Source: Bacteroidaceae bacterium (GTDB lineage: Bacteria > Bacteroidota > Bacteroidia > Bacteroidales > Bacteroidaceae). From it: DNA of 32,843 nt. The first letter of the stretch is position 1, and every line of letters begins with the position of its first letter. This document shows positions 2,023 to 21,708 of this stretch, piece by piece. The notes beneath the pieces are model-generated. The model had not been told where the DNA came from and ran no database searches. It saw only the letters and a list, made by a program, of their open reading frames with translations. Location: the NCBI GenBank assembly GCA_017428785.1, contig JAFRQD010000013.1, positions 1 to 32,843 on the forward strand, in the 5' to 3' direction. Both the position numbers and the translations under genes were made by a program.

Positions 2023-2111
2023 AAAACGCCGTATGCGACGATGCAAAATCACACATTCTGTGATTGCAAACGCAGCACGCGGCGTTCTGTTTTGCCGCGT
2101 GCCGTGTTTCG
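2023..2111. repeat. 22-bp-period intergenic array, GC-rich type (4 units)
   Basis: Four consecutive units of 22, 23, 22 and 22 bp start at 2023, 2045, 2068 and 2090. Units 1, 3 and 4 carry variants of the GC-rich core seen at three other sites in the window: CGCCGTATGCG, CGCAGCACGCGG and its inverse GCCGCGTGCC. Unit 2 is a palindrome, AATCACA then CATTC then TGTGATT. Units 3 and 4 form a perfect 9-bp inverted repeat (GCACGCGGC with GCCGCGTGC). The array lies between the rpsU promoter and the 3' end of mdh. The rest of 1969-2218 holds a GGCAGA-TTG-TCTGCC hairpin (2125-2139), an AT-rich stretch (2141-2160) and a CCTCCT-CGG-AGGAGG palindrome, and no credible gene. Confidence 0.6.
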
Positions 2112-2218
2112 AGGTGCGCCATGAGGCAGATTGTCTGCCCTTATATATAATATATAATGTACGCGCGTGAAATTCATCCTCCTCGGAGGAGGGGGTTAGG
2201 GAGGGGTGCCTGCTCTTT

Positions 2219-3211
2219 TTAGAGGTTGGCGTTGTCGTCCTTCCAGTTTGCTACGGGAGGAATGATGCCGAGCTCGATGATTTCGTCGCGCATCTTCTGC
2301 AGGTGCTCGTAGGAAGCCTGGAGTGCTGCCATCTCTTCTGCCGTGCCTTCGGGAGCGGTGAAGTGGACGCCGTCCTTGTCGATGACGGTAGGCATAGCCA
2401 TCATGACGTTCTTGAAGCCGCACTTGTCGCAGTTCACATAGCAGCCTGCGGGCCACTTGAAGGGTTCGCCGCCCATAGCGCCTTCAATCATCTTGACGGC
2501 CTGGTAAGCGGGGCTCTGGAATGAAGAGCGGCCGCGGAGCTTGATGATGTTGCTGCCGCCCTGAGTGGTCATGTGCTTGATTTCGGCCCAGCGCTCGGCA
2601 GAGAGAGGAAGCTCGCTGAGGGGCTTGCCGTCGATCTTTGCCTTCGAGGCGAAGACGGCCATCTGCTCGCCGTGACCGCCGTAGGTGAAGGCGTCGGTCA
2701 CCTTGTCCTGCTGCACGCCGAACTCCTGAGCGAGCTGCTGCTGGAGGCGGGTTGAGTCGAGGGCTGCAAGGGAGGTGAGCTGGTTGGGCTTCAGACCTGA
2801 GTGGATGAGAGCCGTGAGGGCTGTCACATCGGCAGGATTGAAGATAACTACCACGTGTTTCACGTCGGGGCAATACTTCTTGATGTTCTCGCCGAACTCA
2901 GCTGCTATCTGGCAGTTGCCCTTCAGCAGGTCTTCGCGGGTCATACCCTCCTTACGGGGAGCGCCACCGCTGGAGATGATGTACTTGGCACCTGTGAAAG
3001 CCACAGCGGGGTCGACGGTGTAGGAGATGTTTGCGCCGGGGAAAGCGCAGTGGCACATCTCGTCGTAAACGCCGTGCACGCCGGGTTCGTAGATATCATA
3101 CAGACAAATGTTTGGGGTAAGGCCGAGCATCAGGACGCTCTGCACCATGTTGGAGCCGATCATGCCGCCGGCACCAACGATAACGAGTTTCTCGTCAGTC
3201 AGGAATTTCAT
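2219..3211 (-). CDS. mdh: Malate dehydrogenase, Prevotella-type (330 aa)
   Basis: This is an NAD-dependent L-malate/lactate dehydrogenase-family enzyme, assigned as malate dehydrogenase interconverting malate and oxaloacetate. In fermentative Bacteroidales it serves the fumarate/succinate branch. A Rossmann dinucleotide motif GAGGMIG is at 13-19. The substrate-loop arginines Arg86 and Arg92 (APRKEGMTR) carry the pattern of malate rather than lactate specificity. Asp152 and Arg155 (ALDSTR) and catalytic His180 (YGGHGEQM) are present. The length fits. It resembles the Prevotella enzyme beginning MKFLT more than the 313-residue Bacteroides type beginning MSKVTVVG; this comparison is from memory. 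The gene is monocistronic with its own promoter. A short Cys-rich stretch (CYVNCDKCG) is present, of unknown meaning. Confidence 0.88.
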   Translation of the reverse strand: MKFLTDEKLVIVGAGGMIGSNMVQSVLMLGLTPNICLYDIYEPGVHGVYDEMCHCAFPGANISYTVDPAVAFTGAKYIISSGGAPRKEGMTREDLLKGNCQIAAEFGENIKKYCPDVKHVVVIFNPADVTALTALIHSGLKPNQLTSLAALDSTRLQQQLAQEFGVQQDKVTDAFTYGGHGEQMAVFASKAKIDGKPLSELPLSAERWAEIKHMTTQGGSNIIKLRGRSSFQSPAYQAVKMIEGAMGGEPFKWPAGCYVNCDKCGFKNVMMAMPTVIDKDGVHFTAPEGTAEEMAALQASYEHLQKMRDEIIELGIIPPVANWKDDNANL

Positions 3212-3252
3212 GATTTTTAGTTATTTTAGTTGTTTTACTATGTTTCGGGCTA

Positions 3253-3284
3253 CAAAGTTACAAATAAGTGCGCACAAAAACAAA
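3253..3284 (-). promoter_or_regulatory. Promoter for mdh
   Basis: On the minus strand, TTTG (3281-3284), a 20-nt spacer and TAACTTTG (3253-3260) give a perfect -7 match. It lies about 45 nt before the mdh start. Confidence 0.72.
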
Positions 3285-3466
3285 AGAAACTGAATTTATT
3301 TTGTTTTGTAGAACGAAAGTAACTTCGACACAGTCAAAGTCGCGAGTAAATGAGCGCACACATAACAAATAGGACATTGTTTTGCATAAAATCCCATTCG
3401 TGCCCGTGGAACCTGTTGATACACAGCCCTTGCAGCCCCCTGAAAAAGGGCGGCAGCGAGGCCTCG

Positions 3467-3556
3467 AAAACGCCGCGTGCGGGGATTGGCAACGCCGCAC
3501 GCGGAAATGGTCATCGCCGCAGCCGGGGATTGCCATCGCCGCACGCGGCGTTTTCA
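3467..3556. repeat. 22-bp-period intergenic array, GC-rich type, framed by an inverted repeat
   Basis: Four tandem units of exactly 22 bp start at 3469, 3491, 3513 and 3535. Each begins (A/T)CGCCGC and has the core CGCCGCACGCGG or a close variant (unit 1 CGCCGCGTGCGG, unit 3 CGCCGCAGCCGG), followed by an ATTGGC, ATGGTC or ATTGCC tail. The array is bounded by a perfect 16-bp inverted repeat: AAAACGCCGCGTGCGG at 3467-3482 and its complement at 3539-3554. It lies between mdh and the giant secreted protein gene. Confidence 0.7.
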
Positions 3557-3745
3557 CACCCTCCTGGAGAGGCATTTTCCGCCTCTGCTCCTCCCCTCAA
3601 ACGGGAGGGTAGTCAGGGTGCCTTCTTCCCTTATCAGAAGGGCGAAAGCACTGTCCTGAAGAGGATACTGCCTCCCCTGCTCCCTTCCCTTTCCTTGAAG
3701 GGGAGGGGCAGAGCGAAGCGAGTGTGGGGCGAAAGAATGGCGTCT
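3557..3745. other. C/G-rich intergenic stretch with small hairpins downstream of the giant gene
   Basis: No credible gene is seen. Short inverted repeats follow one another: CTCCC-GGGAG (about 3592-3608), CCCTT-ATCAG-AAGGG (about 3628-3642) and a CCTTGAAGG-centred C-rich/G-rich palindrome (about 3690-3710). They may act in RNA 3'-end formation for the gene ending at 3746 on the minus strand, but none has a clear T-tract. Confidence 0.35.
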
Positions 3746-6700
3746 TTACTTCACCAGCACTTTCTTGCCGTTTACGATGTTGATGCCCTTCTGCATCTTG
3801 CTCAGGCGCATACCAGCCAGATTGTAGATGGTCTCCGCCTCTGGTTCCTTGGGAGAAGATACTCCTGTAATCAGCTCTTCCTCCTCGCCTGTGTTCAGGA
3901 AATAGGCATACGAGATGTCGAAGATATTGCCCTGGAGATAGAGGTAAGCGTCGAAGGCATTGATTATCGTCCCATCATCACACGGGGCAAGTATCGGGTT
4001 GCCGTCCACCATCACCCTATTCCAACCAGCGTAGTCGTCGAAAATGCGCTTGGAATATTCTCCCCTGAATTCGATTTCGCCATTGTAGAGTATTACATTA
4101 TTGTAGGCACTTCGTATGGTGACTTTTTCGAAAACGGGATCCTCGATGTCGTCCCCTTCTTTCCACCTCAAGATGTAAGGAACGCCAGCCTTGAACTTGG
4201 TGACAGGTGTCAGGCAGTTCACGATGACGGTACCATCCTTGATTGTAACCGATTCTGCCGTCCTGATCTCGGCACCGGCAAGCGGACTGTTCTCTATATC
4301 CACATCGAAGGGCAGGCAAAGCGTCTGCCACTTGCCGTCCTTCTTGAGCGTGCGGTCAACGAGTATGACGTTAAGATAGAATCCATCGTTCTCTTTAACA
4401 ATATTCAAGTTATCTCTTGAATTATTGATATACAGGTTGATGGCTATATTGTCTTTCGTAGCGAACTTCATGGTTCCTGTGCTTGCTTCTACCACGCCGT
4501 CATTGAGGCCCATTATCATGAGCTCATACCTCGTGTTACACTTCAGGCCCTCAATCGTGGCTTCCGTATCACTGGTGGATATGCTCTTCCAAACATTATT
4601 ATCTGATTTATAAATGCCGAAATCATCAAGGCTGAGCATGTACTTATCCGATACGTTGAAGTGACGGATAGCAACGTAACCCTTTTGGCCAGCATACGCA
4701 CTCAAGTCTGCAGTATATTCCTTGTATTCGTTCGTAGCAGTGAACATATCTGATATCTGGACGAAGTCGCTTGGAGTAGGGTTGGAGGCAGTAGAGACAT
4801 AGAAGGCGAAATGCTCGTCAGCACGTTCCGGATCTTGTCCAATCAACCAAGCACGAACAGTGCCCTGCAAGTCAAGCTGAGGCGAAATCAGCCAGTTGTC
4901 GGGATTCAGTGCTGTTTGGCTAGGCCTGTCGAAACTATTGGACGAGATGCTGACTATACCTGAATGGCATCTTAATTTCGATGCTTCCCAATTAGCATGA
5001 GGATACCAGTTGAAGCCGTCATTATCGGAATCAATACTCGTCCACCCTTCAGGCAAAACATTTTTGAAAGCAATGCCTTCGAAGTCCTCAAAGAAGACAG
5101 CTTCACCCGCTTCCGGTCTGTAACAAACCATATACTGTTCGCTATTGCCCTTCCAGCTGAGTGTGGCAAAGGTGGTGTCGGGAGCGACTTCTATATCGTA
5201 TGGTATAGAGTTGTCCTCCAGCGTGGTGAATGTATTGATGGGGCTTGAAGCGTCGGCGTAGCCTTCCATCTTGCCGGTAACCTTAAACTCGTACTCCGAT
5301 TCGGGCTGCAGGCCGGTAAGCGTCAACTGGTTTGAAGCTGTCTCCACAGAAATCCAGGACTCTCCCACCTGACCTGGGCCGGCGATGACGATGTCGTCAA
5401 TACCGAGGATAAACTGGTCGGTGCAGTTGAAATGGCGGATGGCCACATAGCCCTGCTTTCCGGCATAGGCGCTCAGGTCAACAGTGAAGAGGCCCCAATT
5501 TCCTTGCGCCTTTCTTCGGGTGCCCTTGGAGCCTGTGCCGTTGGCATTCAAGGTCCATTCATCAAGGAGCGTAAAGGCATTGGGATCGGTATTGCTCGTT
5601 GTGGAAACTGCCACACCGAAGTGCTCGTTGGCATAGTTAGCATCCTGCCCTCTGACATAGAAACTGATGCTGCCGCCCAGCTCGACGAGCGGCGAAACAA
5701 GATAGTTGTCGGGGGTCAAGGCGTGATGGCCTATGCTGACAAACGAACCGGAAAGCAGGAAGGCTTTAGAATCCGCGAAACCAGTTCCCTCCAAGATGGC
5801 GCTGCTGGAGATATAGTCTCCAGGCTCAGTACTCGATGCCCAGGTATATCCGTCGCCATCAGCATCGATGGTCGTCCAGCCCTGGAAGGTTCCGTCGTCG
5901 AAGTCGTAGATGCCACCTTGAGCTCTCTTCCTGTACCTTACCTCATAGCTTTCGCTGATGCCTTTCCAACTGATGGTGGCAGAAGAGCGGGATGGCTCGA
6001 CTGCTATGTCGCAGGGCACAGGGTTGTTTTCCAAAGTGGTGAAGTCCGCTGGGCCAGCCCATTCGCTGTACTGTTCGGCGTCATCATCGATGACGGCACG
6101 AACCAAAGCCTGATATTCTGTACTCTCTTTTAGGTCATATATATAGCAATAGGGCTTGTTCGACCTAAGCCTTTTCTGATTCTCGCCATCATAAAGGTAT
6201 ATTTCCCAGGAAGAAGCTCCACAGTTGTCTGTCCAGTCCAGACGGACGCTGTTTGACCTGATTTGCGATGCAGCCAAGTCAGTCGGACTCGGGAAACGCA
6301 CCGGCGTCTCGAATCCCGTCTGGGCCCATTCGCTGAGTTTGCCATCATCGCCAACTATCTGCACACGAACGAAATAATATGTGTCCTCGTCAAGCGACTC
6401 CAGCCTATAGCTCTTGGATGTCAAGCCAGGAATCTCTATCCAATTGTATGTCCTGTTCTCTCTGTACTGCAGGTTCCATTTGCTGCCTTCGCTTTCCCAA
6501 GTCACCAGGGCGCTGTTCCATTCAATATCGCTGACCTCGATGCTGGAGGGTTTTATGTTGGCATCTTCTTCGTTGAACCTCACAACATTCCTGAATTTCT
6601 CTGGGGTACCATAGTATTGTCTGATGTTCTTCGGGATGAAGCCTTCTTCATCGCTGCGAACGGAAAGGGCCTGAATCCTTGGGTTAACATTAGTGAATAC

Positions 6701-9403
6701 GGCAAAAGACAATCCGCTGGCACCATACCCGGTCTTATCGACCATAACTATGGCAACATTGTCCTTGCCATTATAGCTGAAGATCTTACTGAGCCTGATT
6801 GCTGTCCAGTCGTTGGCTTCGAAGGTCACCTCGCCATCGAACACCTTGTCTGCTGCTGAGAAGTCGACCCAATCGCAGCTCTCGTTGTCATCTGTATTGG
6901 TAATATTGAACTCGTATTTATAGGTATGAACCAGATACATGTCTATTTGGCGTGTCACTTTCTTGCCTGTATTGAAGAAGCTGACGCTGGTAAGGTCTTT
7001 GGCTTCGCCGAGTTCTTGCTGCGTATAGATTTGCTGTGTCAGCGAGTGTTTCCAAGAAGAGGCTGTCGGGAAACAACTGGTGGAAGGGCTTATGTCCTCT
7101 TCGTTGAGCTTAATCTTATTCTTCAAATAACCCAGATGCCTTTGCGTGTAGGTGCTCAAGTCTGCCAGATTGTAGTTGGTGTCGTTACTGTGTGTGTACG
7201 TACTCTGTAGCGGAGCAGTTCTGTACACAAGGAATTGTGTAATGATCGTAGAATACTGGCTATAAGCCCCCGAATTGTCATCCACGATGACAACAAGATT
7301 GCTTGTGCCATCGTAAGCGAACGGCCTGTCGAATGTAATCGTGCACCAGTTGTTCTCTTTGAAGGTAACTTCGCCGCGGTAAACTCTGTCGGTTTCTGAG
7401 AAGTTTATCCAGTTCCTGTTATTTTCGTCGAAGTTTGAGAAGTCTGTGTGTACCAAATAGAGGTCGATGTTGCGCTTCGTTTCCGAACCGGTATTGTAGA
7501 AGCTGATGTTTGTGAGGTTACGGGCAGAGCCTACTTCATCCTGCGTATAGATTTGCTGCGTCAGCGAGTATTTTCTTGCTGTGAAAGAGGGCAGATATTC
7601 GTCGGTATATGTTTTGCTAGCGTTTATCTCTACCACTCCCGGTTCGAGGCCCGGCTCGAAGCTGTCCCCGCCGACGAAGGTGAGCTGCAACTGGTTCTTG
7701 TAAGACACACGCCAATCGGCAGCTGGCAGCGATGCCGGATTGTGGGGAGAACTGCCTCCGGCAAAGTAGATTCCCGTCTCGCGCTTGTCATTATAAACGC
7801 TCCAATACACCTTCTTACCACTCGAGCCGGTCTTGTCGTTCGCTACGAGGCAGAGGTTTTCCAAACCATCGTACTCGAAGGGTTTGCTGAGCCTGATTGA
7901 CGTCCAGTCGTCAAGGGCAAAGGTCACTGAGCCGCTGAACACTTTATCGCTCTCGGAAACGCTTACCCAATCTTCATCGCTAGTGAACTCCTTCTTATTG
8001 GTCTTCACCAGATAGAGGTCGATGTAGCGAGTCTGAGCTTCTGTAGCGCCACCTGATTGGCTTACTGATTTAAAGCCGATGGTGGTGATGGTGCCTGTCC
8101 TGGCGATTTCCTGTGCGGTGTATATTTGCTGTGAGACTGAATGGCTGAAGTTTAAGTTTACAGGCAACGGGATGTTGGAATTGTCGCCGCTGCCTACCTG
8201 AATTGTCGTCTCCGGCTCTGGGCTTCCGCCGTCTGTGAAGGTGAGCAGAAGCTGATTCTTGGTGTTATCGATATTATCAAATTGAGAGTACGCTATCCAG
8301 TTCACAGAAGATGTCGGATCATAGCTGCCGTTCCTAGAGTTGTAAAGTCTGAAAGACTGCTTTTGCCCATCAAATACAGACCATTTAGGGGTTGAGGCAT
8401 ACTCACCGGTCTTATCGTTGACGATGACACAAAGGTTTTGGCTGCCGTCGTATTCGAAAGGCTTGTCGAAAGTAAGGGTCGCCCATTGTCCGGCAGTAAA
8501 CTTCACAGCACCGCTGAAGACTTTATCGCCTGCCGATGCGACAATGCCATCGGAAGAACTGCTGAAGGAAGTCTTGCTCGTCTTCACCAGATAGAGTTCC
8601 AGATTTCGCGTCACATCGTAACCCTCGGCCATTTTGAAGGCGAGACTGCCGATGTAGCCGGTATGGCCGATTTCTGCAATCGTATAAATCTGCTGAGTCA
8701 AGGCGTAATTCCAATTGGTTGCTGTAGGGTAGCCCCTTTCTGATACTGCGTCGCCGCTGCCCACCTGGATGGTTCCGGCACCCGATTCCGGGCCTGAGCC
8801 TCCGCTAAAGGTCAGCTGAAGCTGTGACTTGTAGGACACCGGCTGTGGGGTCGATTGACTTTGCACGCTCTGCGGCGAGGCAGGATTGTATGCACCATAA
8901 GCATCATTGAGGCGGAAAATGGCTTGCCCCGTTGCGGAATAAACAAGCCAACTTGCAACATCAGAGAATGAGCCGGTCTTGTCATTCACAATGAGGCAGA
9001 GGTTTGTCGAACCGTCATACACGAAAGGCTTGTCGAAAGTGATGGTCGTCCATTTTCCTGCATTAAAGCTGACGCTGCCGCTGAAGACCTTGTCGCTCTC
9101 CTGTGCGCTAAGGTAGTCGGTTGCATTGCTGAACTGACTCTTAGAGGTTTTCACAAGATAGATGTCGATGGTTCGGGCAAACGCTAAGTCCTCCATTATC
9201 TTGAAACCTATGCTGGTAATAGTGCCCTTCCTGCCTATTTCAGATGACGTGTAGATTTGCTGTGTCAGACCATATTTCCAGTTATTGTAAATGGGCATTC
9301 CTATTTGGGCACTCGTGCCGCTGCCCACCTGGATGGTTTCAGCCTTGGAGATGCCGAAGCACATCAGCATCAACATTACGATTAGTAGTGATTTCTTGTT
9401 CAT
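3746..9403 (-). CDS. Giant secreted modular adhesin-like protein: five repeat modules, FN3 and cleaved-adhesin domains, T9SS-like tail (1,885 aa)
   Basis: A probable cell-surface or secreted protein. It has a signal peptide (about 1-21, MNKKSLLIVMLMLMCFGISKA). Five modules of about 185 residues begin near 24, 213, 399, 588 and 770. Each has the signature SLTQQIYT..EIG, then IDLYLVKT, DKVFSG, a KPFxYDG box and VNDKTG. Two fibronectin type III domains follow (about 950-1120). After these come two units in which a cleaved-adhesin-type lectin-like domain (GWTTIDADGDGYTW and GWTSIDSDNDGFNW, ending GYVAIRHFN) sits inside a split FN3 fold. The C-terminus (IYNLAGMRLSKMQKGINIVNG) resembles the sorting tails of type IX cargo and should direct export across the outer membrane. 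The role is unproven: adhesion, glycan or protein binding. It is transcribed alone, divergently from nagB. Base composition is somewhat more AT-rich than its neighbours. Confidence 0.85.
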   Translation of the reverse strand: MNKKSLLIVMLMLMCFGISKAETIQVGSGTSAQIGMPIYNNWKYGLTQQIYTSSEIGRKGTITSIGFKIMEDLAFARTIDIYLVKTSKSQFSNATDYLSAQESDKVFSGSVSFNAGKWTTITFDKPFVYDGSTNLCLIVNDKTGSFSDVASWLVYSATGQAIFRLNDAYGAYNPASPQSVQSQSTPQPVSYKSQLQLTFSGGSGPESGAGTIQVGSGDAVSERGYPTATNWNYALTQQIYTIAEIGHTGYIGSLAFKMAEGYDVTRNLELYLVKTSKTSFSSSSDGIVASAGDKVFSGAVKFTAGQWATLTFDKPFEYDGSQNLCVIVNDKTGEYASTPKWSVFDGQKQSFRLYNSRNGSYDPTSSVNWIAYSQFDNIDNTKNQLLLTFTDGGSPEPETTIQVGSGDNSNIPLPVNLNFSHSVSQQIYTAQEIARTGTITTIGFKSVSQSGGATEAQTRYIDLYLVKTNKKEFTSDEDWVSVSESDKVFSGSVTFALDDWTSIRLSKPFEYDGLENLCLVANDKTGSSGKKVYWSVYNDKRETGIYFAGGSSPHNPASLPAADWRVSYKNQLQLTFVGGDSFEPGLEPGVVEINASKTYTDEYLPSFTARKYSLTQQIYTQDEVGSARNLTNISFYNTGSETKRNIDLYLVHTDFSNFDENNRNWINFSETDRVYRGEVTFKENNWCTITFDRPFAYDGTSNLVVIVDDNSGAYSQYSTIITQFLVYRTAPLQSTYTHSNDTNYNLADLSTYTQRHLGYLKNKIKLNEEDISPSTSCFPTASSWKHSLTQQIYTQQELGEAKDLTSVSFFNTGKKVTRQIDMYLVHTYKYEFNITNTDDNESCDWVDFSAADKVFDGEVTFEANDWTAIRLSKIFSYNGKDNVAIVMVDKTGYGASGLSFAVFTNVNPRIQALSVRSDEEGFIPKNIRQYYGTPEKFRNVVRFNEEDANIKPSSIEVSDIEWNSALVTWESEGSKWNLQYRENRTYNWIEIPGLTSKSYRLESLDEDTYYFVRVQIVGDDGKLSEWAQTGFETPVRFPSPTDLAASQIRSNSVRLDWTDNCGASSWEIYLYDGENQKRLRSNKPYCYIYDLKESTEYQALVRAVIDDDAEQYSEWAGPADFTTLENNPVPCDIAVEPSRSSATISWKGISESYEVRYRKRAQGGIYDFDDGTFQGWTTIDADGDGYTWASSTEPGDYISSSAILEGTGFADSKAFLLSGSFVSIGHHALTPDNYLVSPLVELGGSISFYVRGQDANYANEHFGVAVSTTSNTDPNAFTLLDEWTLNANGTGSKGTRRKAQGNWGLFTVDLSAYAGKQGYVAIRHFNCTDQFILGIDDIVIAGPGQVGESWISVETASNQLTLTGLQPESEYEFKVTGKMEGYADASSPINTFTTLEDNSIPYDIEVAPDTTFATLSWKGNSEQYMVCYRPEAGEAVFFEDFEGIAFKNVLPEGWTSIDSDNDGFNWYPHANWEASKLRCHSGIVSISSNSFDRPSQTALNPDNWLISPQLDLQGTVRAWLIGQDPERADEHFAFYVSTASNPTPSDFVQISDMFTATNEYKEYTADLSAYAGQKGYVAIRHFNVSDKYMLSLDDFGIYKSDNNVWKSISTSDTEATIEGLKCNTRYELMIMGLNDGVVEASTGTMKFATKDNIAINLYINNSRDNLNIVKENDGFYLNVILVDRTLKKDGKWQTLCLPFDVDIENSPLAGAEIRTAESVTIKDGTVIVNCLTPVTKFKAGVPYILRWKEGDDIEDPVFEKVTIRSAYNNVILYNGEIEFRGEYSKRIFDDYAGWNRVMVDGNPILAPCDDGTIINAFDAYLYLQGNIFDISYAYFLNTGEEEELITGVSSPKEPEAETIYNLAGMRLSKMQKGINIVNGKKVLVK
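6560..9340 (-). repeat. Five in-gene module repeats of about 550-570 bp
   Basis: The coding DNA repeats five times (module starts near 9335, 8765, 8207, 7640 and 7095, minus strand). Each copy encodes the QQIYT, YLVKT, DKVFSG and YDG boxes. The copies are diverged, with modules 4 and 5 the most different (VYRGEVTF and VFDGEVTF in place of VFSGSVSF). This suggests old duplications rather than recent slippage. Confidence 0.8.
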
Positions 9404-9547
9404 AACATTATAATATTATTTGATTTGACGCATTAGCGTGTGTAAAGTTACGGTTTTTTATGGAAAGGAGCAAGGAAACAGGTCGTTTATTCGTCGAAAA
9501 CACGCAATATTAAAGCCTGCGGAACCCAAAACGGCACTCGCTGTTGC

Positions 9548-9650
9548 CAGACGCCGCACGCGGAGTTCATTGATTATTCATGATGCAGCAATTGATTATT
9601 CATGATGCAGCAATTGATTATTCATGATGCAGCAACGAACACCGCCTGCT
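9548..9650. repeat. 22-bp-period array, compound type (three identical direct AT-rich units)
   Basis: Left flank 9548-9569 is a GC-type 22-mer with the core CGCCGCACGCGG and end AGTTCA. Three identical 22-bp units follow at 9570-9591, 9592-9613 and 9614-9635, each made of left arm TTGATTAT, centre TCATGA and right arm TGCAGCAA. The right flank is CGAACACCGCCTG (9636-9648). The site lies between the divergent giant-protein and nagB genes. The rest of 9404-9832 holds a possible -7 box for the minus-strand gene (TAACTTTA, 9443-9450) and the nagB promoter, but no gene. Confidence 0.85.
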
Positions 9651-9767
9651 GCACCGACCGGCGAGGGAGGGGGACCTGAGTGGCACAGGCTGCGGCGACG
9701 GATGACAAAATGCAACAGATTCTGCATTTTTTTTAGACATACTCTATGATATTTCACGAAAAAGATG

Positions 9768-9832: not shown

Positions 9833-10624
9833 ATGAGAGTAATTATCGAACCTGACTATGAGAACCTGAGCCGCTGGGCTGCTGAGTATGTTGCAGCAAA
9901 GATCAACGCTGCCAAGCCGACCCCCGAGAAACCCTTCAAACTGGGTTGTCCCACCGGTTCATCACCACTTGGCCTTTACAAGCACCTCATCGAGATGTAC
10001 AAAGCCGGCAAGGTCTCTTTCCAGAATGTCATCACCTTTAATATGGACGAATACGTCGCTCTGCCCGAGGAGCATCCGGAAAGCTACCACAGCTTCATGT
10101 GGACCAACTTCTTCTCGCACATCGACATCAAGAAGGAGAACGTGCACATCCTCAACGGCAACGCCAAGGACCTGGCTGCGGAATGCGCTCAGTATGAGGC
10201 TGCCATCCAGGCTGCTGGCGGCATCGACCTCTTCATGGGAGGCATCGGCCCCGACGGACACATCGCATTCAACGAGCCCTTCAGCTCTCTGCAGAGCCGC
10301 ACACGCGTGAAGAGCCTCACCACCGACACCATCATCGCCAACAGCCGCTTCTTCGACAATGATGTCAACAAGGTGCCCAAGACCGCTCTGACAGTCGGCG
10401 TAGGCACTGTGATGGATGCCAAGGAAGTGCTCATCGTGGTGAACGGCCACAACAAGGCACGCGCCCTGCAGCACGCCATCGAGTGCGGCGTCAGCCAGGA
10501 ATGGACCATCAGCGCCCTGCAGATGCATCCGCATGCCATCATCGTATGCGACGAAGCAGCCACCGACGAGCTGAAGCACGGCACATACAAGTACTTCAAG
10601 GACATCGAGAAGGACAATCTGTAA
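9833..10624 (+). CDS. nagB: Glucosamine-6-phosphate deaminase (263 aa)
   Basis: A cytoplasmic enzyme converting glucosamine-6-phosphate to fructose-6-phosphate and ammonia, the committed step of amino-sugar catabolism. Numbering coincides with E. coli NagB: Asp72 (FNMDEYV), Asp141 and His143 ([11 protein letters not shown]) and Glu148 are all present, as is the phosphate-binding [11 protein letters not shown] loop at 39-49. The length equals that of the single-domain enzyme, without the larger fusion domain found in some Bacteroidetes NagB-like proteins. The start ATG begins the conserved MRVIIEPD. It stands apart from nagA and has its own promoter. Downstream lies a 10-bp tandem repeat. Confidence 0.96.
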
Positions 10625-10630: not shown

Positions 10631-10690
10631 AAGGAGACAGAAGGAGACAGAAGGAGATAGAAGAAGATAGAAGAAGATAGAAGAAGATAG
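10631..10690. repeat. 10-bp tandem repeat, six units
   Basis: Six consecutive 10-mers follow the nagB stop: AAGGAGACAG twice, AAGGAGATAG once, AAGAAGATAG three times. The purine-rich strand is the coding strand. Variation is graded, with one substitution per step, as expected from slippage expansion. It begins six bases after the stop codon and is noncoding in the chosen annotation. Confidence 0.9.
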
Positions 10691-10793
10691 AATCAGGGCC
10701 TTGAACTATTGTCCTCTATCTTCGCCGCCGAAGGCGGCATATCTTCCTCTAACTCCCTCTCATTACACAAACCCTCAAACACTTCACAAAACT

Positions 10794-12871: not shown

Positions 12872-12946
12872 GGTGCCTATAGTTCAGTTGGTTAGAGCGT
12901 CAGATTGTGGTTCTGAATGTCGTCGGTTCGAGTCCGACTAGGCACC
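12872..12946 (+). tRNA. tRNA-His (anticodon GTG)
   Basis: A complete cloverleaf. The acceptor stem is GTGCCTA (12873-12879) with TAGGCAC (12939-12945), with the extra G at 12872 opposite C at 12946 that is typical of tRNA-His. Anticodon GTG is at 12907-12909 in the loop TTGTGGT. The T-arm reads GGTTCGAGTCC. It is followed at once by an intrinsic terminator. Its right side is the edge of the accessory stretch carrying the methyltransferase and nuclease. Confidence 0.96.
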
Positions 12947-12992: not shown

Positions 12993-13021
12993 TGCAAGCA
13001 GCAGCACCCAGGCATCCCAAA

Positions 13022-13109
13022 AAATCCACACGAGGATTTTGCAAAGTTCACACGAGGATTTGGCGAAATCCACACGAGGATTTGGTGGAATCCACACGAG
13101 GACTTTGAA
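13022..13109. repeat. 22-bp-period array with a distinct unit sequence (4 units)
   Basis: Four tandem units of exactly 22 bp start at 13022, 13044, 13066 and 13088. The core is (T)CCACACGAGGA with dyad arms AAATCC and GGATTT, so each unit is a small inverted repeat around ACACGA. Only a few positions vary (for example TTCACACGAGG in unit 2 and GAGGACTTT in unit 4). The array lies between the tRNA-His terminator and the restriction-modification genes. Confidence 0.85.
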
Positions 13110-13681: not shown

Positions 13682-14740
13682 ATGGCTAACAAGAACCTTA
13701 ATGCTGCCAAGACTGCGAAGAAGGATGAGTTCTACACGCAGATGGCAGACATCGAGCGCGAGTTGCAGCACTACTGGCCGCACTTCGCCGATAAGGTCGT
13801 GCTCTGCAACTGCGACGACCCTTACGAGAGCAACTTCTTCAAGTATTTTGCCCTGAACTTCAACCAGCTGGGCTTGAAGAAACTTATCTGCACCTGCTTC
13901 GACGGCTCGCCCGTGCAAGGCAACGAACTCCTGCTCGACTTTGGCGACTTCACCGACGACCCCAAGAAGATTGCCTATAAGGTCGAGATAACGGAAGTGA
14001 AGGACTTGAACGGCGATGGTGCAGTCGATTTGGCAGACGTGCAATATCTGCTGAAGAACGACAAGAACGCCATCTCCCTGCTCAAGCAGCATGGCGACTT
14101 CCGCAGCGCAGAATGTATCGAACTGCTCAAGCAAGCGGACATCGTCGTAACCAACCCGCCGTTCTCGCTCTTTAGGGAATACATCGGGCAACTGATGCAG
14201 TATGGGAAGAAGTTCTTGATAATAGGACATCAAAATGCTATCACGTATAGAGAGGTTTTTCCTTTGCTTCAGTCAAATCAAGTATGGCTTGGATATGGTT
14301 TCAAAGGGGCAGCCGCGCATTTTTCTTCTCCTTATGATGATATTGCAACTGCTGGTGACCACAAAAAAGATATGATTCGCGTTTCTGGCGTTAATTGGTT
14401 TACAAATCTAGAAATACCTAAACGAAATGAAGACTTGGATTTAGTATGTCGTTATTCTTCTGAAGAATACCCGACATACGACAATTATAATGCCATTGAA
14501 GTAAGCAGAGTTCAAGATATTCCATGTGATTATTCTGGTGTTATGGGAGTGCCTATAACATTCCTTGACAAGTACAACCCTGACCAGTTCGAGATAATTG
14601 GAGCAACAGAAAACGAAGCAACAGAAGAAGTAAAAGAATTGAGGATTCAAGGCTTTACTAAATATGACAGGCCATATATTAAAGGTATAAGGAAATATGC
14701 TCGCATCCTCATCCGCAACAAACACCTTCAAACGATATGA
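13682..14740 (+). CDS. M.EcoRI-family adenine-specific DNA methyltransferase (352 aa)
   Basis: A probable N6-adenine DNA methyltransferase of the EcoRI-modification family. The N-terminus MANKNLNAAKTAKKDEFYTQ is typical of the family. The catalytic motif IV is N158-P-P-F161 (VVTNPPFSLF). An Asp/Asn-rich loop at 108-119 (DLNGDGAVDLAD) resembles an EF-hand; I recall it as a normal family insertion. The gene follows a 280-nt structured leader, and the start ATG overlaps a hairpin. Its TGA stop lies in the string ATATGATG, which would have overlapped the start codon of the nuclease gene before the intervening insert arrived. The first 178 codons are GC-rich like the neighbouring genes, while codons from about 178 (near 14215) to the end are markedly AT-rich, suggesting a mosaic gene. 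No EcoRI-like endonuclease is seen. Confidence 0.85.
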   Translation: MANKNLNAAKTAKKDEFYTQMADIERELQHYWPHFADKVVLCNCDDPYESNFFKYFALNFNQLGLKKLICTCFDGSPVQGNELLLDFGDFTDDPKKIAYKVEITEVKDLNGDGAVDLADVQYLLKNDKNAISLLKQHGDFRSAECIELLKQADIVVTNPPFSLFREYIGQLMQYGKKFLIIGHQNAITYREVFPLLQSNQVWLGYGFKGAAAHFSSPYDDIATAGDHKKDMIRVSGVNWFTNLEIPKRNEDLDLVCRYSSEEYPTYDNYNAIEVSRVQDIPCDYSGVMGVPITFLDKYNPDQFEIIGATENEATEEVKELRIQGFTKYDRPYIKGIRKYARILIRNKHLQTI

Positions 14741-14742
14741 TG
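14716..14742 (+). repeat. 27-bp direct repeat, left copy
   Basis: It begins CAACAAACACCTTC and ends CGATATGATG. It differs from the copy at 14968-14994 by one base. The left copy contains the methyltransferase stop codon and the right copy the nuclease start codons. Confidence 0.9.
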
Positions 14743-14967
14743 CCTAAAAATATGGCTGGAAGCCATCACATTGAGTAACCGAGGGCAGCGCCCTCGGGAT
14801 AGGCAAAGGCCTCAACCCTACTTTGCCTGGAAGGCAATACAATGAGACAGACTTTGTACTGCCTTCCAGGCAGAGAGACAGAGGACTGCTTTCTTGTCCG
14901 AGGGCGTTGCCCCCGGTTTCTCAAAGTAAAGCCTTTCAGGCTAAATGCAGAAACTTTAACTTTTCAT
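14743..14967. mobile_element. MITE/REP-like palindromic insert between methyltransferase and nuclease
   Basis: A 225-bp noncoding segment bounded by 27-bp direct repeats. Its ends mirror each other imperfectly. The left end carries GGCTGGAAGCC, TTGAGTAACC and the hairpin CCGAGGGCAGCGCCCTCGG (14779-14797). The right end carries CCGAGGGCGTTGCCCCCGG (14898-14916), then GTTTCTCAAAG and GCCTTTCAGGC. The centre holds a perfect 13-bp inverted repeat, TGCCTGGAAGGCA (14824-14836) with its complement at 14860-14872. The whole could fold into one long imperfect hairpin. No transposase is encoded, so any mobility would depend on another element. The 27-bp repeats are longer than usual target duplications. 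Confidence 0.75.
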
Positions 14968-14994
14968 CAACAAACACCCTCAAACGATATGATG
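14968..14994 (+). repeat. 27-bp direct repeat, right copy
   Basis: It begins CAACAAACACCCTC and ends CGATATGATG, where two ATG codons (14989 and 14992) can start the nuclease. It matches the left copy at 14716-14742 in 26 of 27 bases. Confidence 0.9.
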
Positions 14995-16113
14995 ACAATT
15001 GAAAAGAAAGAAGTAACCGTTCGTGAGATTTACGAAGGTTACATCAACAACGACGAGCTGGGCGTGCGTGGCTATGGTGGCTTGCTCGACATACGTCCGC
15101 CTTATCAACGCGAGTTCATCTACAACGAAAAGGAAGAGAAGGCTGTCATCACGACCATCCTCCATAATTATCCATTGAATGTGATGTATTGGGTGAAGCG
15201 TAGCGACGATGCCGAATGCCCCTACGAAGTGATGGACGGGCAGCAGCGCACCATCTCCATCTGCGAATATGTGGCAGGACACTTCTCCTACGACTTCAAG
15301 AACTTCCACAACCAACCCGAAGACATCAAGCGAAAGATACTCGACTACAAACTCGACATCTATGTCTGTCAAGGCGAGGCAAGCGAGAAGCTTGAGTGGT
15401 TCCAGACCATCAACATCGCCGGCAAAGTCTTGAACGACCAAGAAATAAACAACGCTATCTTTGCGGGACCTTTCGTCTCGGATGCCAAGAAGCATTTCTC
15501 GAAAACAAACAGCGGCGGCGCACGCTTAGGCAAAGACCTCGTAAACGGTACGCCCATTCGTCAGGACTTCCTCAAGAAAGCCCTCGAATGGATGAGCGAA
15601 CACGAGACAAGGCAAGGACATCCCCAGTCCATCAAAAGCTACATGGCAGCCCACCAGCACGACCCTAACGCCAACAACCTGTGGACTTACTTCCAAAATG
15701 TACTGAACTGGGCACAGACGAACTTCGACATGAGGAAGTTCAAGAAGATAATGAAGGGACTCAACTGGGCAGAACTTTACGACAGGTTCGGCTCAGCAAC
15801 GCTCGATACTGCCGACCTTGCCCGTCGCATCTCTGCCCTGATGCGCGACGGCGACATACAGAAGCAGACGGGCATCATCCCTTACGTCCTAACAGGCGAC
15901 GAGCGCTATCTCGACCTTCGTGCCTTCCCCGAAGACATCAAGCTGGCTGTCTGGGAAAAGCAGAACCATATCTGTCCGCTTTGTGGCCGCGAGTTCGACT
16001 ATGAGTTGATGGAAGGCGACCACATCACACCATGGCGTGAAGGCGGCCGCACAGTCGTCGAGAACTGCCAAATGTTGTGCATCGAATGCAACAGAAGAAA
16101 GGGCGGAAGATAA
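14989..16113 (+). CDS. DUF262-HNH endonuclease, probable restriction partner (374 aa)
   Basis: The N-terminal domain is DUF262 (GmrSD/ParB-like NTPase type), with RPPYQREFIYNEKEEKA and the signature D83-G-Q-Q-R (VMDGQQRTISICEY). The C-terminal HNH nuclease, from about 329, has zinc-binding CPLC and CIEC pairs, catalytic His345 in EGDHITPW, and Asn in the CIECN region. DUF262-HNH proteins include NTP-dependent nucleases that act on modified or phosphorothioated DNA (GmrSD, SspE, BrxU types). Lying directly after an M.EcoRI-type methyltransferase, it most likely cuts DNA lacking or bearing that mark. I chose 14989 over the in-frame ATG at 14842 because the extra 49 codons derive from the inserted repeat. 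Translation was probably coupled to the methyltransferase before the insertion. Confidence 0.85.
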   Translation: MMTIEKKEVTVREIYEGYINNDELGVRGYGGLLDIRPPYQREFIYNEKEEKAVITTILHNYPLNVMYWVKRSDDAECPYEVMDGQQRTISICEYVAGHFSYDFKNFHNQPEDIKRKILDYKLDIYVCQGEASEKLEWFQTINIAGKVLNDQEINNAIFAGPFVSDAKKHFSKTNSGGARLGKDLVNGTPIRQDFLKKALEWMSEHETRQGHPQSIKSYMAAHQHDPNANNLWTYFQNVLNWAQTNFDMRKFKKIMKGLNWAELYDRFGSATLDTADLARRISALMRDGDIQKQTGIIPYVLTGDERYLDLRAFPEDIKLAVWEKQNHICPLCGREFDYELMEGDHITPWREGGRTVVENCQMLCIECNRRKGGR

Positions 16114-16141
16114 AACTTATTCAACACGACAGCTAATAACA

Positions 16142-16186: not shown

Positions 16187-16199
16187 TATACCAGCAATC

Positions 16200-17363: not shown

Positions 17364-17401
17364 TTCTTTAATATTTAATAATTCTTATACTTATTTTGCA
17401 G

Positions 17402-17432
17402 CAAAGTTACGATTATACAGACAAATTACAAA
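17402..17432 (-). promoter_or_regulatory. Promoter for galM
   Basis: On the minus strand, TTTG (17429-17432), a 19-nt spacer and TAACTTTG (17402-17409) match the consensus fully, about 38 nt before the galM start. Confidence 0.8.
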
Positions 17433-17450
17433 AGAAATAAGGCAAAAAAG

Positions 17451-17481
17451 TTGCTTTGTATTAGATTTTCTTCTAACTTTG
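17451..17481 (+). promoter_or_regulatory. Promoter for the fasciclin-domain gene
   Basis: TTGC (17451-17454), a 19-nt spacer and TAACTTTG (17474-17481). The predicted start is only about 20 nt before the ATG at 17507. It is divergent from the galM promoter, with about 20 bp between the two -33 boxes. Confidence 0.7.
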
Positions 17482-17506
17482 TACCGAAATATGAACCTAA
17501 AGCAAC

Positions 17507-19636: not shown

Positions 19637-19718
19637 AACAGTCAGGCTCATATACGAAGCCTGCGTAGAGGCCAAACGCCTCGTGCGTCGAGCCGAAACA
19701 TCACACGCTATAAACACA

Positions 19719-19764
19719 AACACTCCCCGTCAAGTTTGCCGACTTAGCAGGGAGTGTTTTTTAT
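19719..19764 (+). terminator. Intrinsic terminator after the fasciclin gene
   Basis: AACACTCCC (19719-19727) pairs with GGGAGTGTT (19750-19758), followed by TTTTTATT. It lies between convergent genes and may serve the acyltransferase transcript from the other side as well. Confidence 0.85.
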
Positions 19765-19798
19765 TATAACTGCCGATACGAGAATCAGCGGCTTGGGG

Positions 19799-20917
19799 TT
19801 ATACGCCTACAAGCCACTTGCTACCGGGGAGGAAGGATATGATCTTCGTCGTTATGGCACAGCAAATATAGCTCAGCACGGCGATTGCAGGGATGGCGGC
19901 CCACACGGGGATGAGCGGCTCGGCTTGATTGCCGTTCACAAAGTACACGGCGATGGGAGCCAGGAAGAACATGTGCATCAGATACATGCCGAAGCTCATC
20001 TTGGAAATCGACGTGACGAGTCGGGGAGCAGGCTTCTTGATGGTGGAGAACACGAGGAAGAGCCCGAAGGTGGCCAGCAGGACATTCGGTGTGCAGAACT
20101 CCCAGCTCCATTCAAGCGCAGGTGTCTCAATGGCAACGCCTGGCACGCCCTTCAGCCAGAAGCTCCATGCCGTGAAAGCTGCTCCGACGAGGAAGAAAGC
20201 CCAACCGAGCCAGATGCGACGGCCGTCTTCCCACTTCAGATGGACGCGGATATAGTGTGCCAGGACAAGATAGCCGAGGTAGCCCGAGCAATACCACAGC
20301 ATGTGGAAGCCGTTCCAGAAGCATTCGCCCCACAACTCGTCGCTCACAAAGCGGTGCAGCCACGGCATCATAGTAGAGAAGGCAAAGAGGTAGATGAATA
20401 TCCTCTCTTCCTTTGCCGAAGCTTTCTCCAGCCAAGGCGACACAACGGGAATAATGATGTAGAGACTGATGAGCGGGTACATGAACCAGAGATGGCCGGC
20501 CATCGAGGGGAAATTCCACGGCAAGCGGCAGAAGTCAGCCCACGACGTCTCCCACGTCATACCGCCCCAAGCAAGAGGCAGGAAGCAGTAGAGCAGCATA
20601 AAGACGAGCAGCGGAGGCAATATTCTCAGGGCGCGACGGCGGTAGAAGTCCGTCATGCTCATGCCCGGCTTGAGTGGCACGAGCAGGAAAGCGCTGATGG
20701 TCATGAAGAGAGGGACAGCCGTACGGCCCACTCCTCCGTCATAAAAGGCCACCCAGAAGCGGTTGGCTTCGCAGGCGAGCTTGGACATGTTGCCTGCCAA
20801 CCCACTGTCGTCGGCCCCATAGAAGTTCTCGCTGGCGTGCACCAGCATTACCATAAAGCATGCTATGACGCGTATCCAATCTACGAAGGCCACGCGCTGT
20901 TCAGTTCTCTCATTCAT
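19799..20917 (-). CDS. Acyltransferase 3 family membrane protein (372 aa)
   Basis: An integral membrane O-acyltransferase of the OatA/NodX-like family, which transfers acyl (often acetyl) groups to sugars of surface glycans. The N-terminus RVAFVDWIRVIACFMVMLVH contains the family RxxxxDWxR motif and the catalytic His in the first helix. About ten hydrophobic helices follow, with the RALRILPPLL segment after helix 3 and the late YLMHMF motif typical of the family. The length is usual. Its start overlaps the stop of the upstream PH-domain gene by 8 bp (AATGAATGA), so the two are translationally coupled. The acceptor is unknown. Confidence 0.88.
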   Translation of the reverse strand: MNERTEQRVAFVDWIRVIACFMVMLVHASENFYGADDSGLAGNMSKLACEANRFWVAFYDGGVGRTAVPLFMTISAFLLVPLKPGMSMTDFYRRRALRILPPLLVFMLLYCFLPLAWGGMTWETSWADFCRLPWNFPSMAGHLWFMYPLISLYIIIPVVSPWLEKASAKEERIFIYLFAFSTMMPWLHRFVSDELWGECFWNGFHMLWYCSGYLGYLVLAHYIRVHLKWEDGRRIWLGWAFFLVGAAFTAWSFWLKGVPGVAIETPALEWSWEFCTPNVLLATFGLFLVFSTIKKPAPRLVTSISKMSFGMYLMHMFFLAPIAVYFVNGNQAEPLIPVWAAIPAIAVLSYICCAITTKIISFLPGSKWLVGV

Positions 20918-21470
20918 TGTTTTCGGTATTATTCGGAGTTATCGGAGTGGTCGGAGCATCCGGAGTTGTCGGAGTGCTTTGGGGCTTGCTCTTGATTGAG
21001 GCACAGATGAGGTTGCGCACCTTCATCGGATGCTTCACGCAATGCACTTGATGCGAGGTGCCGCCGCTGCCCACCAGTTCCACACAGCCTGTGCCGAGGA
21101 AGCGCTGCCACAGGGACTGATAGAAGTTCACGGTCTCTATCTTAGAGAAAGGAATCTCCGTCATCTTGATGTTGAAGATGCCGTCCTTCTGCACGAAACG
21201 CGTATTCGTGACGGAGAACTCGGTCCGAGTGCGGATGATTCGCCCGACAATCCAGATGAAGAAGGCCAGCACAAGCAGGGCTATGCCTGTGTAGAAGAGC
21301 GCTTGCTTGTGCTCAGGGAACTTGTAGTAAGCAAGTAAGAGGGCTACGATGCCAGCAACCGTAAAGAGGAACGAATAGAAGAGATACCTGAAGATGTACG
21401 ACCAATGAAGCCGTCCGTTGTAGATGATTTGTTCGCCTTGTTCAAGGCTTTGTCTGATGTAGTTTGCCAT
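20910..21470 (-). CDS. Membrane protein with bacterial PH domain (YdbS/bPH2-like, 186 aa)
   Basis: Starts MANYIRQSLEQGEQIIYNGRLHW, has two membrane helices (about 25-49 and 57-77), then a bPH2-like domain (about 80-160: RTEFSVTNTRFVQKDGIFN, EIPFSKIETVNFYQSL, GCVELVGSGG). The C-terminal tail is a Thr/Pro-rich repeat (TPTTPDAPTTPITPNN) encoded by repeated ACTCCGA-type triplets. The ATG at 21468-21470 is preferred to an upstream in-frame one at 21611 because the -7 box lies between them. The function is unknown. It is coupled to the acyltransferase gene by an 8-bp overlap. Confidence 0.82.
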   Translation of the reverse strand: MANYIRQSLEQGEQIIYNGRLHWSYIFRYLFYSFLFTVAGIVALLLAYYKFPEHKQALFYTGIALLVLAFFIWIVGRIIRTRTEFSVTNTRFVQKDGIFNIKMTEIPFSKIETVNFYQSLWQRFLGTGCVELVGSGGTSHQVHCVKHPMKVRNLICASIKSKPQSTPTTPDAPTTPITPNNTENNE

Positions 21471-21490
21471 AGTTTCACTTATTTTCTTTG

Positions 21491-21498
21491 CAAAGATA
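21491..21498 (-). promoter_or_regulatory. -7 box for the PH-domain/acyltransferase pair
   Basis: TATCTTTG on the minus strand matches the consensus, 21 nt before the start codon. The -33 position reads TTGT (19-nt spacer), a partial match. Confidence 0.6.
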
Positions 21499-21607
21499 TG
21501 ATGTTTTAGCCTAAAAAACAAGAAACAGGGCAGAAAAATTATCCTCTCCGCTGCATGTCTCACACGATTCTGCATGCCGAAACGCCCGTCGCGGCACGCA
21601 TGAACAC

Positions 21608-21708
21608 GCAACGCAGCACGCTTAGTTCATTGATTTGTCATGAACAATCAATTGCTGCATCATGATAAATCAATTGCTGCATCATGATAAATCAATGAAC
21701 GCCGCCTG
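21608..21708. repeat. 22-bp-period array, compound type (units inverted relative to the 9548 site)
   Basis: Left flank 21608-21629 is a GC-type 22-mer (core CGCAGCACGC, end AGTTCA). Three 22-bp units follow. The first, at 21630-21651, is a hybrid with left arm TTGATTTG, centre TCATGA and right arm ACAATCAA. Two identical units (21652-21673 and 21674-21695) have left arm TTGCTGCA, centre TCATGA and right arm TAAATCAA, nearly the reverse complement of the unit at 9570. The right flank TGAACGCCGCCTG (21696-21708) matches the other site. The ends TTCATTGATTT and AAATCAATGAA mirror each other. The site lies between divergent genes. The rest of 21471-21786 holds the two promoters and no gene. Confidence 0.85.

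Follow-up and report, generated by a model that had tools for sequence, protein, structure and literature searches.

A group of uncultured gut bacteria carries intergenic arrays of short pseudo-palindromes repeated at a near-constant pitch of 22 bp, in which spacing is kept while letters turn over at retained sites and changes of length are scarce. This near-constancy of spacing despite changing letters suggests a cellular factor that recognises the spacing. Tentatively, and somewhat short of an even chance, we favour the reading that the arrays are genus-specific intergenic DNA elements of ~3–6 pseudo-palindromes, bound by a dimeric protein and BIME-like at gene 3′ ends.

Array sites in the window

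The window is the whole stretch analysed (32,843 nt; Table 1). Periods were called with Tandem Repeats Finder (TRF), merging overlapping rows and retaining the best score, and genes with our own simple hexamer caller. The first-pass annotation had listed five sites composed of 22-bp tandem units, and four of them receive a TRF call at period 22: 3469–3548 (3.6 copies), 9569–9635 (3.0 identical copies), 13021–13107 (1% indels) and 21638–21696 (2.7 copies), with lag-22 self-match of 0.60–0.69. The fifth, at 2023–2111, has no TRF row and no lag-22 signal and is not a tandem repeat. Considered as a palindrome lattice, its best four-centre pitch was 22, with 12 of 24 pairs, which lies within the null (mean 10.1, sd 1.4 and maximum 14 over 222 control windows), and it was rejected on that count. 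The sites at 3467, 9548, 13022 and 21608 scored 19, 14, 17 and 16, respectively, the score at 9548–9650 merely equalling the null maximum, with pitch 19 tying there.

Table 1. Coordinates of arrays and anchor genes in the window
Feature	Position	Strand	Basis
Palindrome-rich stretch; doubtful member, not a tandem array	2023..2111		No TRF row; lattice within null
Lactate/malate dehydrogenase family gene	2219..3211	-	Pfam PF00056/PF02866; orthology anchor
GC-type array (family A) with four CCGC-NN-GCGG or similar cores	3467..3552	+	TRF; alignment
Mixed array in 22-bp phase throughout: family B between two A-like units	9548..9657	+	TRF
Glucosamine-6-phosphate isomerase family gene, 3′ neighbour of B array	9833..10624	+	Pfam PF01182; orthology anchor
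Family C array (AAATCCACACGAGGATTT type), 3.9 units	13021..13107	+	TRF
Mixed array: family B (three units, 21630-21695) between two A-like units	21608..21708	-	TRF

The family A array has cores at 3473, 3495, 3517 and 3539 and the two ends AAAACGCC...GGCGTTTT, a layout that recurs in 44 aligned family A copies. The family B part of the first mixed array consists of three identical 22-bp pseudo-palindromes (9570–9635), and the family C array sits 3′ of a tRNA gene (12873–12946). By eye, the arrays at 9569 and 21630 are one family (B) on opposite strands, a relation overlooked earlier; each has an A-like unit on either side in 22-bp phase, again by eye. A GC core had been claimed at four sites. 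The exact core CGCCGCACGCGG is present at two of the five (3493, 3537 and 9552); in our own reading, 2023 and 21608 have degenerate forms and 13022 has none, so that four is a generous count. An Rfam gathering search of the window returned three tRNAs and nothing else, and thus no match of the arrays to an Rfam family.

Abundance of the 22-bp period in the genome and its relatives

The array census covered 733,485 bases, 25% of this genome (84% complete), about half of the first own stretches having been picked for showing cores, and returned 86 period-22 arrays, compared with 14 at period 21 and one at period 23. Six of the 86 lie mostly within called genes and 80 do not; two outcomes that the first-pass annotation had named as fatal to its idea, absence of a period-22 excess and location in genes, were looked for, and the reverse was found. 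The 12-mer core occurs in 459 exact genome copies (reversed control, 0) and in 0–7 copies in 36 same-genus relatives; the copies are dispersed, near-identical and amplified by species. Period-22 arrays with other letters are present in other members of the genus, the sample holding such an array in 11 same-genus genomes, and the constant length with changing sequence first noticed in the window holds genome-wide and in several genus members. Samples of 23 other Bacteroidales genomes showed no period-22 excess. In 100 kb each of two genomes, period-21 repeats are about as frequent as period-22 repeats (G011, 4 and 3; G013, 6 and 7), which argues against the DNA-platform reading. An order-level genome (G054) holds 23-bp arrays that resemble the present ones in their palindromic core, three to four tandem units and intergenic position, but only two were found in a sample of 180,000 bases.

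Should selection act on spacing and not on sequence, an entire class of bacterial chromosome elements would escape standard motif searches; a sequence-blind test of palindrome distance detects the 22-bp class. In this genome, strong intergenic palindromes stand 22 bp apart 49 times, against 4.4 (sd 2.0) at other distances, and in 38 same-genus stretches 28 times against 3.1 (sd 1.7), the latter excess persisting when TRF repeats of score at least 30 are masked (12 against 2.0, sd 1.4). Order-level genomes gave 11 against 8.1 (sd 3.1). With TRF repeats masked in this genome, the excess at 22 bp drops to 5 against 2.4 and that at 11 bp persists (17). Coding DNA of this genome shows a slight 22-bp excess (24 against 15.0, sd 3.0), perhaps from arrays within miscalled genes. 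A stricter lattice test, which required three palindromes with 17 of 21 pairs, returned 12 sites at pitch 22, 14 at 33 and one at 19 in this genome, 7 at pitch 22 in the genus and 1–2 at several pitches in the order set, and was set aside as too coarse.

Unit architecture and constancy of length

Each unit is a pseudo-palindrome of two 11-bp halves facing each other, which bears out the internal dyad symmetry described earlier, although palindromy is moderate (28 of 83 unit consensi score above shuffled versions of themselves by z 2). Units abut and are alike within an array, which distinguishes them from CRISPR repeats with unique spacers of at least 20 bp, and families are homogeneous within a genome. 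The half-site vocabulary differs by genome: TTGCTGCATCA/TTGATTTATCA in G000, TTATACATACA in G061 and TTGCTTCATCG in G013. Unit number is also regular, 45 of 56 A chains spanning four units and 43 B-type runs in all fetched DNA comprising 35 of three units, eight of two and none of more.

Among 94 neighbouring exact A cores less than 40 bp apart, 93 stand at 22 bp and one at 21, and the 22-bp windows around the 93 pairs contain 457 differences. As control, 114 array-masked intergenic local alignments to G061 and G062 gave one gap per 11.7 mismatches. At that rate ~39 length changes would be expected against the one seen among GC units, a figure to be read with the shared ancestry of units (events are not independent), the inclusion of some flank in the outermost windows and the low gap costs, which favour gaps in the control. 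Together with the census and the genus comparison, this count supports the earlier interpretation in part, in that spacing is kept far more than letters. The pitch is not absolute, since 24 of 190 neighbouring core gaps in G061 measure 21 bp; in a more complete list of chains, 24 of 26 gaps of this length fall at an outer junction. Moreover, 22 bp corresponds to 2.1 turns of B-DNA, so that four units drift by ~0.4 turn.

The likeness of units within arrays and the homogeneity of families within genomes would also be expected had the arrays arisen once by duplication, with gene conversion copying letters but not length changes and spacing under no selection. We regard this as very improbable: the 22-bp palindrome distance survives TRF masking in same-genus genomes, more weakly in this genome, and outer palindromes flanking A arrays keep phase on the lattice (0.46 and 0.43 at offsets -22 and +88, against 0.239, sd 0.044) despite varying letters.

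Orthologous sites

Orthologous sites often retain an array with a different unit. Among 19 own arrays with both flanks in the fetched G061 DNA, eight face the same family (seven A–A and one B–B with other letters), five another family and six no TRF array; seven own arrays compared with G062 gave two A–A, one B–B and four without, the A–A matches in both sets being biased upward by the choice of loci L054–L120 for holding a family A pair. The own array L049:2160, which occurs twice in the orthology listing, was counted once, and 'no TRF array' can mask a degenerate array, as seen in one instance. At a twentieth site, 5′ of the window gene at 9833, G061 carries a differently lettered B array, which aligns with the window site through the array without gaps, and G062 an A-type array. 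No TRF array was found at the G061 orthologue of the second mixed array. Where an array stays in place at constant pitch and its letters turn over, it offers a natural experiment on co-change of protein and genomic site.

Dispersed near-identical copies, and arrays that are present at a site in one genome and missing from its orthologue in another, are also compatible with simple mobile DNA, and mobility of the arrays is likely. That the arrays are REP- or MITE-like repeats spread by transposition or recombination, mostly passengers, with a pitch inherited from the founding copy and a position at gene ends that tolerate insertion, is nevertheless rather unlikely. Amplification by species and the six sites without a TRF array in G061 suit such repeats, as does the finding that no four-unit A array was placed in a divergent region (below), expected if promoter insertions are harmful; BrickBuilt of Porphyromonas gingivalis is described as a MITE containing a 23-nt repeat (PMC4596501). 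Six orthologous comparisons (four without array, one degenerate A missed by TRF, one C-type) revealed neither terminal repeats nor target duplications, at junctions that are mostly unalignable, and no clean empty site; A copies are symmetric at their ends. One pitch is common to several unlike families, site and phase persist while the family changes, and length changes between units are few, all of which argues against passengers.

Mobilisation by a RAYT-type enzyme, one of three roles suggested at first, finds no support and was rejected on a Y1_Tnp search of this genome and 60 relatives and on reading of the locus. The only Y1_Tnp gene of this genome is flanked by other palindromes, with no 22-bp array in its 3.3-kb locus. 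No Y1_Tnp match was found in nine of the 11 same-genus genomes with a sampled period-22 array, these being incomplete drafts; G013 and G031, both with such an array, have matches. A gene lying between two B arrays in L159, considered as a possible transposase, resembles a secreted protein by eye and was discarded.

Placement relative to genes

Family A arrays lie closer to stop than to start codons, with medians of 47 against 222 bp in this genome, 32 against 128.5 bp in G061 and 51 against 98 bp in G062; the 3′-end bias is seen in two of three genomes and is weak in G062. None of 40 placed four-unit A arrays of this genome lies between divergent genes (of 45, three at stretch edges and two within called genes were left unplaced), and A arrays of at least three cores occupy divergent regions in 1 of 58 cases in G061 and 3 of 19 in G062, sets from which L096, L101 and L110, belonging to other genomes, were left out. 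TRF-defined arrays occur between divergent genes in 2 of 36 (A), 3 of 9 (B) and 4 of 20 (C) cases. A orientation is neutral to transcription (14 against 12, three undecided). Along the chromosome, array intervals have a CV of 0.65 against 0.81 for random intergenic choice, evenness that is not significant (0.106 of 2000 draws as low).

Proximity to stop codons in all three genomes would suit arrays acting as RNA, either as bidirectional transcription terminators or as mRNA 3′-end hairpins. Short T-runs and hairpins occur at both ends of A arrays, and nine of the ten strands of the five window sites fold better than shuffles (z < -2). Classical terminators are rarer at A-array gene ends (3/38 against 37/181), a depletion that is not significant (Fisher p = 0.10), and at one convergent site, by eye, an A array in G061 takes the place of a classical hairpin with T-run in this genome. 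Sense strands of co-directional arrays carry more G-T than A-C mismatches (18 against 9), which leans towards RNA. However, T-runs in co-directional arrays are equal on the sense and antisense sides in this genome (4.37 and 4.53, n=30), as they are in G061 (5.05 and 5.07, n=41), and the neutral orientation of A arrays likewise opposes an RNA role. Across 38 of 44 A copies, six having been removed beforehand as degenerate, double changes do not exceed shuffled expectation for the long hairpin (47 against 47.4), unit hairpins (6 against 15.6) or adjacent-unit hairpins (6 against 10.7). The halves of B units agree no more closely than random pairs in four of six genomes (G000, G061, G018 and G016), but more closely in G013 (1.41 against 2.62 mismatches) and G062 (2.94 against 3.45). 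Separate RNA hairpins have no need of a fixed 22-bp pitch, and family B also lies between divergent genes. We therefore consider action as RNA unlikely; the structured-RNA ladder suggested earlier folds well but gains no support from the covariation or strand tests.

A proposed double-stranded binding platform

Protein-binding arrays were the best fit among the roles suggested at first. We propose that a candidate DNA-binding protein, or small protein family, occupies each palindrome as a dimer and that adjacent dimers, about two helical turns apart, contact each other; such contact would place the distance under selection while letters between key positions drift. The half-site vocabulary of each species would then track its own protein. 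When bound, family A at gene 3′ ends may set neighbouring genes apart as a boundary, topological or transcriptional, a role modelled on that ascribed to E. coli BIMEs, and family B, which usually has three palindromes, may be a separate platform that also occurs in promoter regions. A broader version appears doubtful: a chromosome-wide 'spacing code' in which an 11/22-bp dyad lattice would be read as double-stranded DNA by a putative genus-specific protein family, the half-site letters being rewritten in concert across each species' genome without loss of site, phase or pitch, in the manner of an arms race or of coevolution of a protein with its sites throughout the genome. To our knowledge, little is known of chromosome organisation in this gut-bacterial group, in which the arrays, if the proposal is true, would signal a nucleoid or boundary factor.

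Comparison with known systems

Cooperative dimer operator arrays include the 22-bp end sites of Tn7 TnsB and Mu A and the ArgR and MetJ boxes. They share with the present arrays tandem sites about two helical turns apart and a spacing that matters, but have a fixed sequence at few loci, whereas the present arrays occupy hundreds of loci with changing letters.

REP/BIME elements are similar in their short palindromic units, extragenic clusters, high copy number (hundreds per genome) and species-specific letters. A bias to gene 3′ ends is likewise common to both, and we know of no BIMEs between divergent genes. The present arrays differ in their nearly fixed 22-bp pitch and unit number, in the direct repetition of near-symmetric units and in flanking no RAYT gene of this genome. 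Binding of gyrase, IHF or Pol I is a further REP/BIME trait. Within BIMEs, REPs are described as regularly spaced in alternating orientation, and BIME-2 as binding gyrase (PMC2817692). REP palindromes are described as tagged GTAG or CGTC at one end (PMC3733652); by eye, the consensus built from 44 A copies has neither tag at its ends, A being the one family inspected.

BrickBuilt belongs to the same order and is likewise an intergenic tandem repeat; its unit has nearly the same length (23 nt) and is imperfect from copy to copy. As described, it is one repeat family with 19 copies of 1 to 22.8 units and has a leader, tail and terminal inverted repeats (PMC4596501); the present arrays, in contrast, have three to four units as a rule, several families and no such ends that we could find. 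A literature search of open-licence papers returned no published description of 22-bp palindrome lattices. As to carriage by phages, one family B 26-mer was present in no viral contig and the family A pair pattern in two.

Period-22 arrays in the window and its genome

The first-pass annotation had claimed five tandem arrays of 22-bp units; Tandem Repeats Finder (TRF) recovered four period-22 arrays in the window, each at one of these sites, whereas at 2023–2111 a tandem repeat was absent by TRF and self-matching and the palindrome lattice did not rise above chance. In the source genome (G000), a 2.98-Mb draft of 71 contigs that is 84% complete, CGCCGCACGCGG has 459 copies against 0 for the reversed control. 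Non-overlapping arrays with a TRF score of at least 50 were counted in the window and 40 further stretches (733,485 bases), the first 20 partly picked for holding the core and the second 20 mostly contig starts, giving 86 arrays of period 22, 14 of period 21, 1 of period 23 and 9 of period 24. Only 6 of the 86 lie mostly within called genes. Sorting by unit letters yielded family A, with a GC core (43), the pseudo-palindromic family B (9), family C (21) and others (13).

Coordinates of arrays and accompanying features (window unless a locus is named)
Location	Feature	Remarks
2023–2111	Claimed array	
3467–3556	Period-22 array	
9548–9650	Period-22 array	
13022–13109	Period-22 array	
21608–21708	Period-22 array	
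2219–3211	Lactate/malate dehydrogenase family gene	
3746–9403	1885-aa protein (Cleaved_Adhesin, fn3 domains)	Separates dehydrogenase and isomerase genes
9833–10624	Glucosamine-6-phosphate isomerase family gene	
10631–10692	Purine-rich 10-bp repeat (AAGAAGATAG, 6.2 copies)	3' of isomerase gene; similar stretches at many places in G020, G005, G013, G014 and G017
13682–16113	EcoRI-type adenine methylase (PF13651) adjoining GmrSD_N/HNH nuclease-like protein (PF03235, PF01844)	Candidate restriction-modification or defence pair
14740–14960	Palindromes	Resemble Y1_Tnp-flanking repeats (by eye)
G018 L292:455–552	Further 22-bp array (TTTCCGTGTCCGCTGGATGGCA, 4.5 copies)	About 30–40 bp from B array
G054 L198:8231–8298, 9647–9736	Two 23-bp arrays	Palindromic core TCACAAGNTTGT

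Unit anatomy

Period-22 units are partial palindromes on a 22-position circle, with on average 0.63 of positions paired (83 arrays) compared with 0.46 for 31 repeats with a period other than 22; 28 of the 83 beat their own shuffles in palindromy by z 2, and the palindrome centre falls between bases in 77. Given a 22-bp period and one dyad, a second dyad must lie 11 bp off. In family A, CCGCNNGCGG-like cores form 56 chains, of which 45 span four units; 44 copies align without gaps between the ends AAAACGCC and GGCGTTTT, and an extra, weaker palindrome stands exactly 22 bp beyond each end.

Family B runs contain three units (35 of 43) or two (8), each unit consisting of two 11-bp halves from a small vocabulary particular to each genome: TTGCTGCATCA along with TTGATTTATCA and related halves in G000, TTATACATACA and kin in the same-genus relative G061, TTGCTTCATCG in G013, and TTGCTGCATCA, TTGCTTGATGA and kin in G018, G003, G016 and G019. 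Halves of a unit pair worse than random same-genome halves in G000 (3.12 vs 2.41 mismatches, sd 0.24), G061 (1.64 vs 1.34, sd 0.14), G018 (2.00 vs 1.53, sd 0.20) and G016 (2.22 vs 1.75, sd 0.34), and better in G013 (1.41 vs 2.62, sd 0.38) and the same-genus G062 (2.94 vs 3.45, sd 0.29).

Near-constant spacing and turnover of letters

Among adjacent exact A cores less than 40 bp apart in G000, 93 of 94 are separated by 22 bp. The 22-bp windows round core pairs hold 457 differences (447 in the 12 positions 3' of each core, a different window that overruns the array at the last unit), and about 39 length changes would be expected because 114 array-masked intergenic alignments contain 1 gap per 11.7 mismatches, a figure that low gap costs may inflate. 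In G061, 24 of 190 gaps measure 21 bp, and its chain listing places 24 of 26 such gaps at an outer junction.

Nineteen G000 arrays had both flanks in sampled G061 DNA: A stood opposite A in 7 and opposite C or another type in 4, C opposite A in 1 and B opposite B with other letters in 1, while 6 had no TRF array at the counterpart. Upstream of the isomerase gene the G000–G061 alignment runs gap-free across a B array in which each of the three units differs in letters between the two genomes, and G062 carries an A array there; among 19 loci of other relatives at this gene, a 22-bp array lies upstream in G024 only and downstream in G016 only. At L049:19613 an A array faces a C-type array of G061 in like phase, as judged by eye. 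Place and pitch can therefore outlast letters, yet arrays are also gained and lost; that they are mobile passengers is a less favoured but serious alternative. B letters do not track relatedness, because the more distant genus members G018, G003, G016 and G019 (loci L287–L298; isomerase gene DNA identity to G000 72–75%) share G000 half-sites and the closer G061 (86%) does not. In G061 and G062 the dehydrogenase and isomerase genes lie near each other with an array in between.

Gene context and proposed mode of recognition

The 45 four-unit A arrays of G000 occupy 29 co-directional, 11 convergent and 0 divergent gaps (3 others lie at stretch edges and 2 within called genes), at a median of 47 bp from the flanking stop and 222 bp from the flanking start; by comparison, 38 of 207 intergenic regions of at least 120 bp are divergent. 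Arrays with at least three A cores numbered 40 co-directional, 17 convergent and 1 divergent in G061, and 11, 5 and 3 in G062. Families B and C do not share this restriction.

Action as RNA terminators is rather unlikely, though still a serious alternative. All five sites give good folds on either strand (z −0.9 to −4.9), as is usual for palindrome arrays, and sense-strand mismatches lean towards RNA (18 G–T vs 9 A–C). Across 38 A copies no hairpin scheme showed double changes above shuffles, T-runs are equal in both directions, and A-array orientation is neutral to transcription. Recognition as double-stranded DNA is more likely, and the best-supported reading, a tentative one, is that the arrays would serve as platforms on which protein dimers sit and touch their neighbours, with a BIME-like role at gene ends. 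The classes of mechanism are compatible, as one element may both spread and bind.

Kinship with known repeats

Such a 22-bp palindrome lattice was not found described in the open-licence literature; the nearest known elements there are REP/BIMEs (PMC2817692, PMC3733652) and BrickBuilt (PMC4596501). The 22-bp arrays are proposed to work like BIMEs, but the A consensus, by eye, lacks the end tag of REPs and no 22-bp array flanks the one RAYT-type gene of the G000 draft; we therefore regard them as an intergenic palindromic repeat variant, not as REPs. Other palindromic repeats (CCCTGAAAGGGC, CCCAGGGCGTTGCCCTGGG and similar) flank the single Y1_Tnp (RAYT-type) gene at locus L161 (G000:C56) and, by eye, are probably the true REPs of the G000 RAYT.

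Distribution among relatives

The A core is amplified in G000 and has 0–7 copies in each of 36 same-genus genomes; among the matches listed, RUG12391 (G061) and SRR8387715_bin.115 (G062) hold many cores in pairs. Several genus members with few A cores still carry period-22 arrays with other letters, and 353,257 bases from 20 same-genus genomes held 10 arrays of period 22, 5 of period 21 and 1 of period 23. In 100 kb sampled from each, period-22 arrays numbered 3 in G011, 6 in G012 and 7 in G013, and period-21 repeats 4, 0 and 6. Among other Bacteroidales (23 genomes in all, some represented by a few kilobases only), the first 287,223 bases sampled contained no period-22 array and later stretches one, in G059; G054, from another family of the order, has 23-bp arrays. 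A sequence-blind palindrome-distance test gave a split between genus and order-level genomes that agrees with the array counts.
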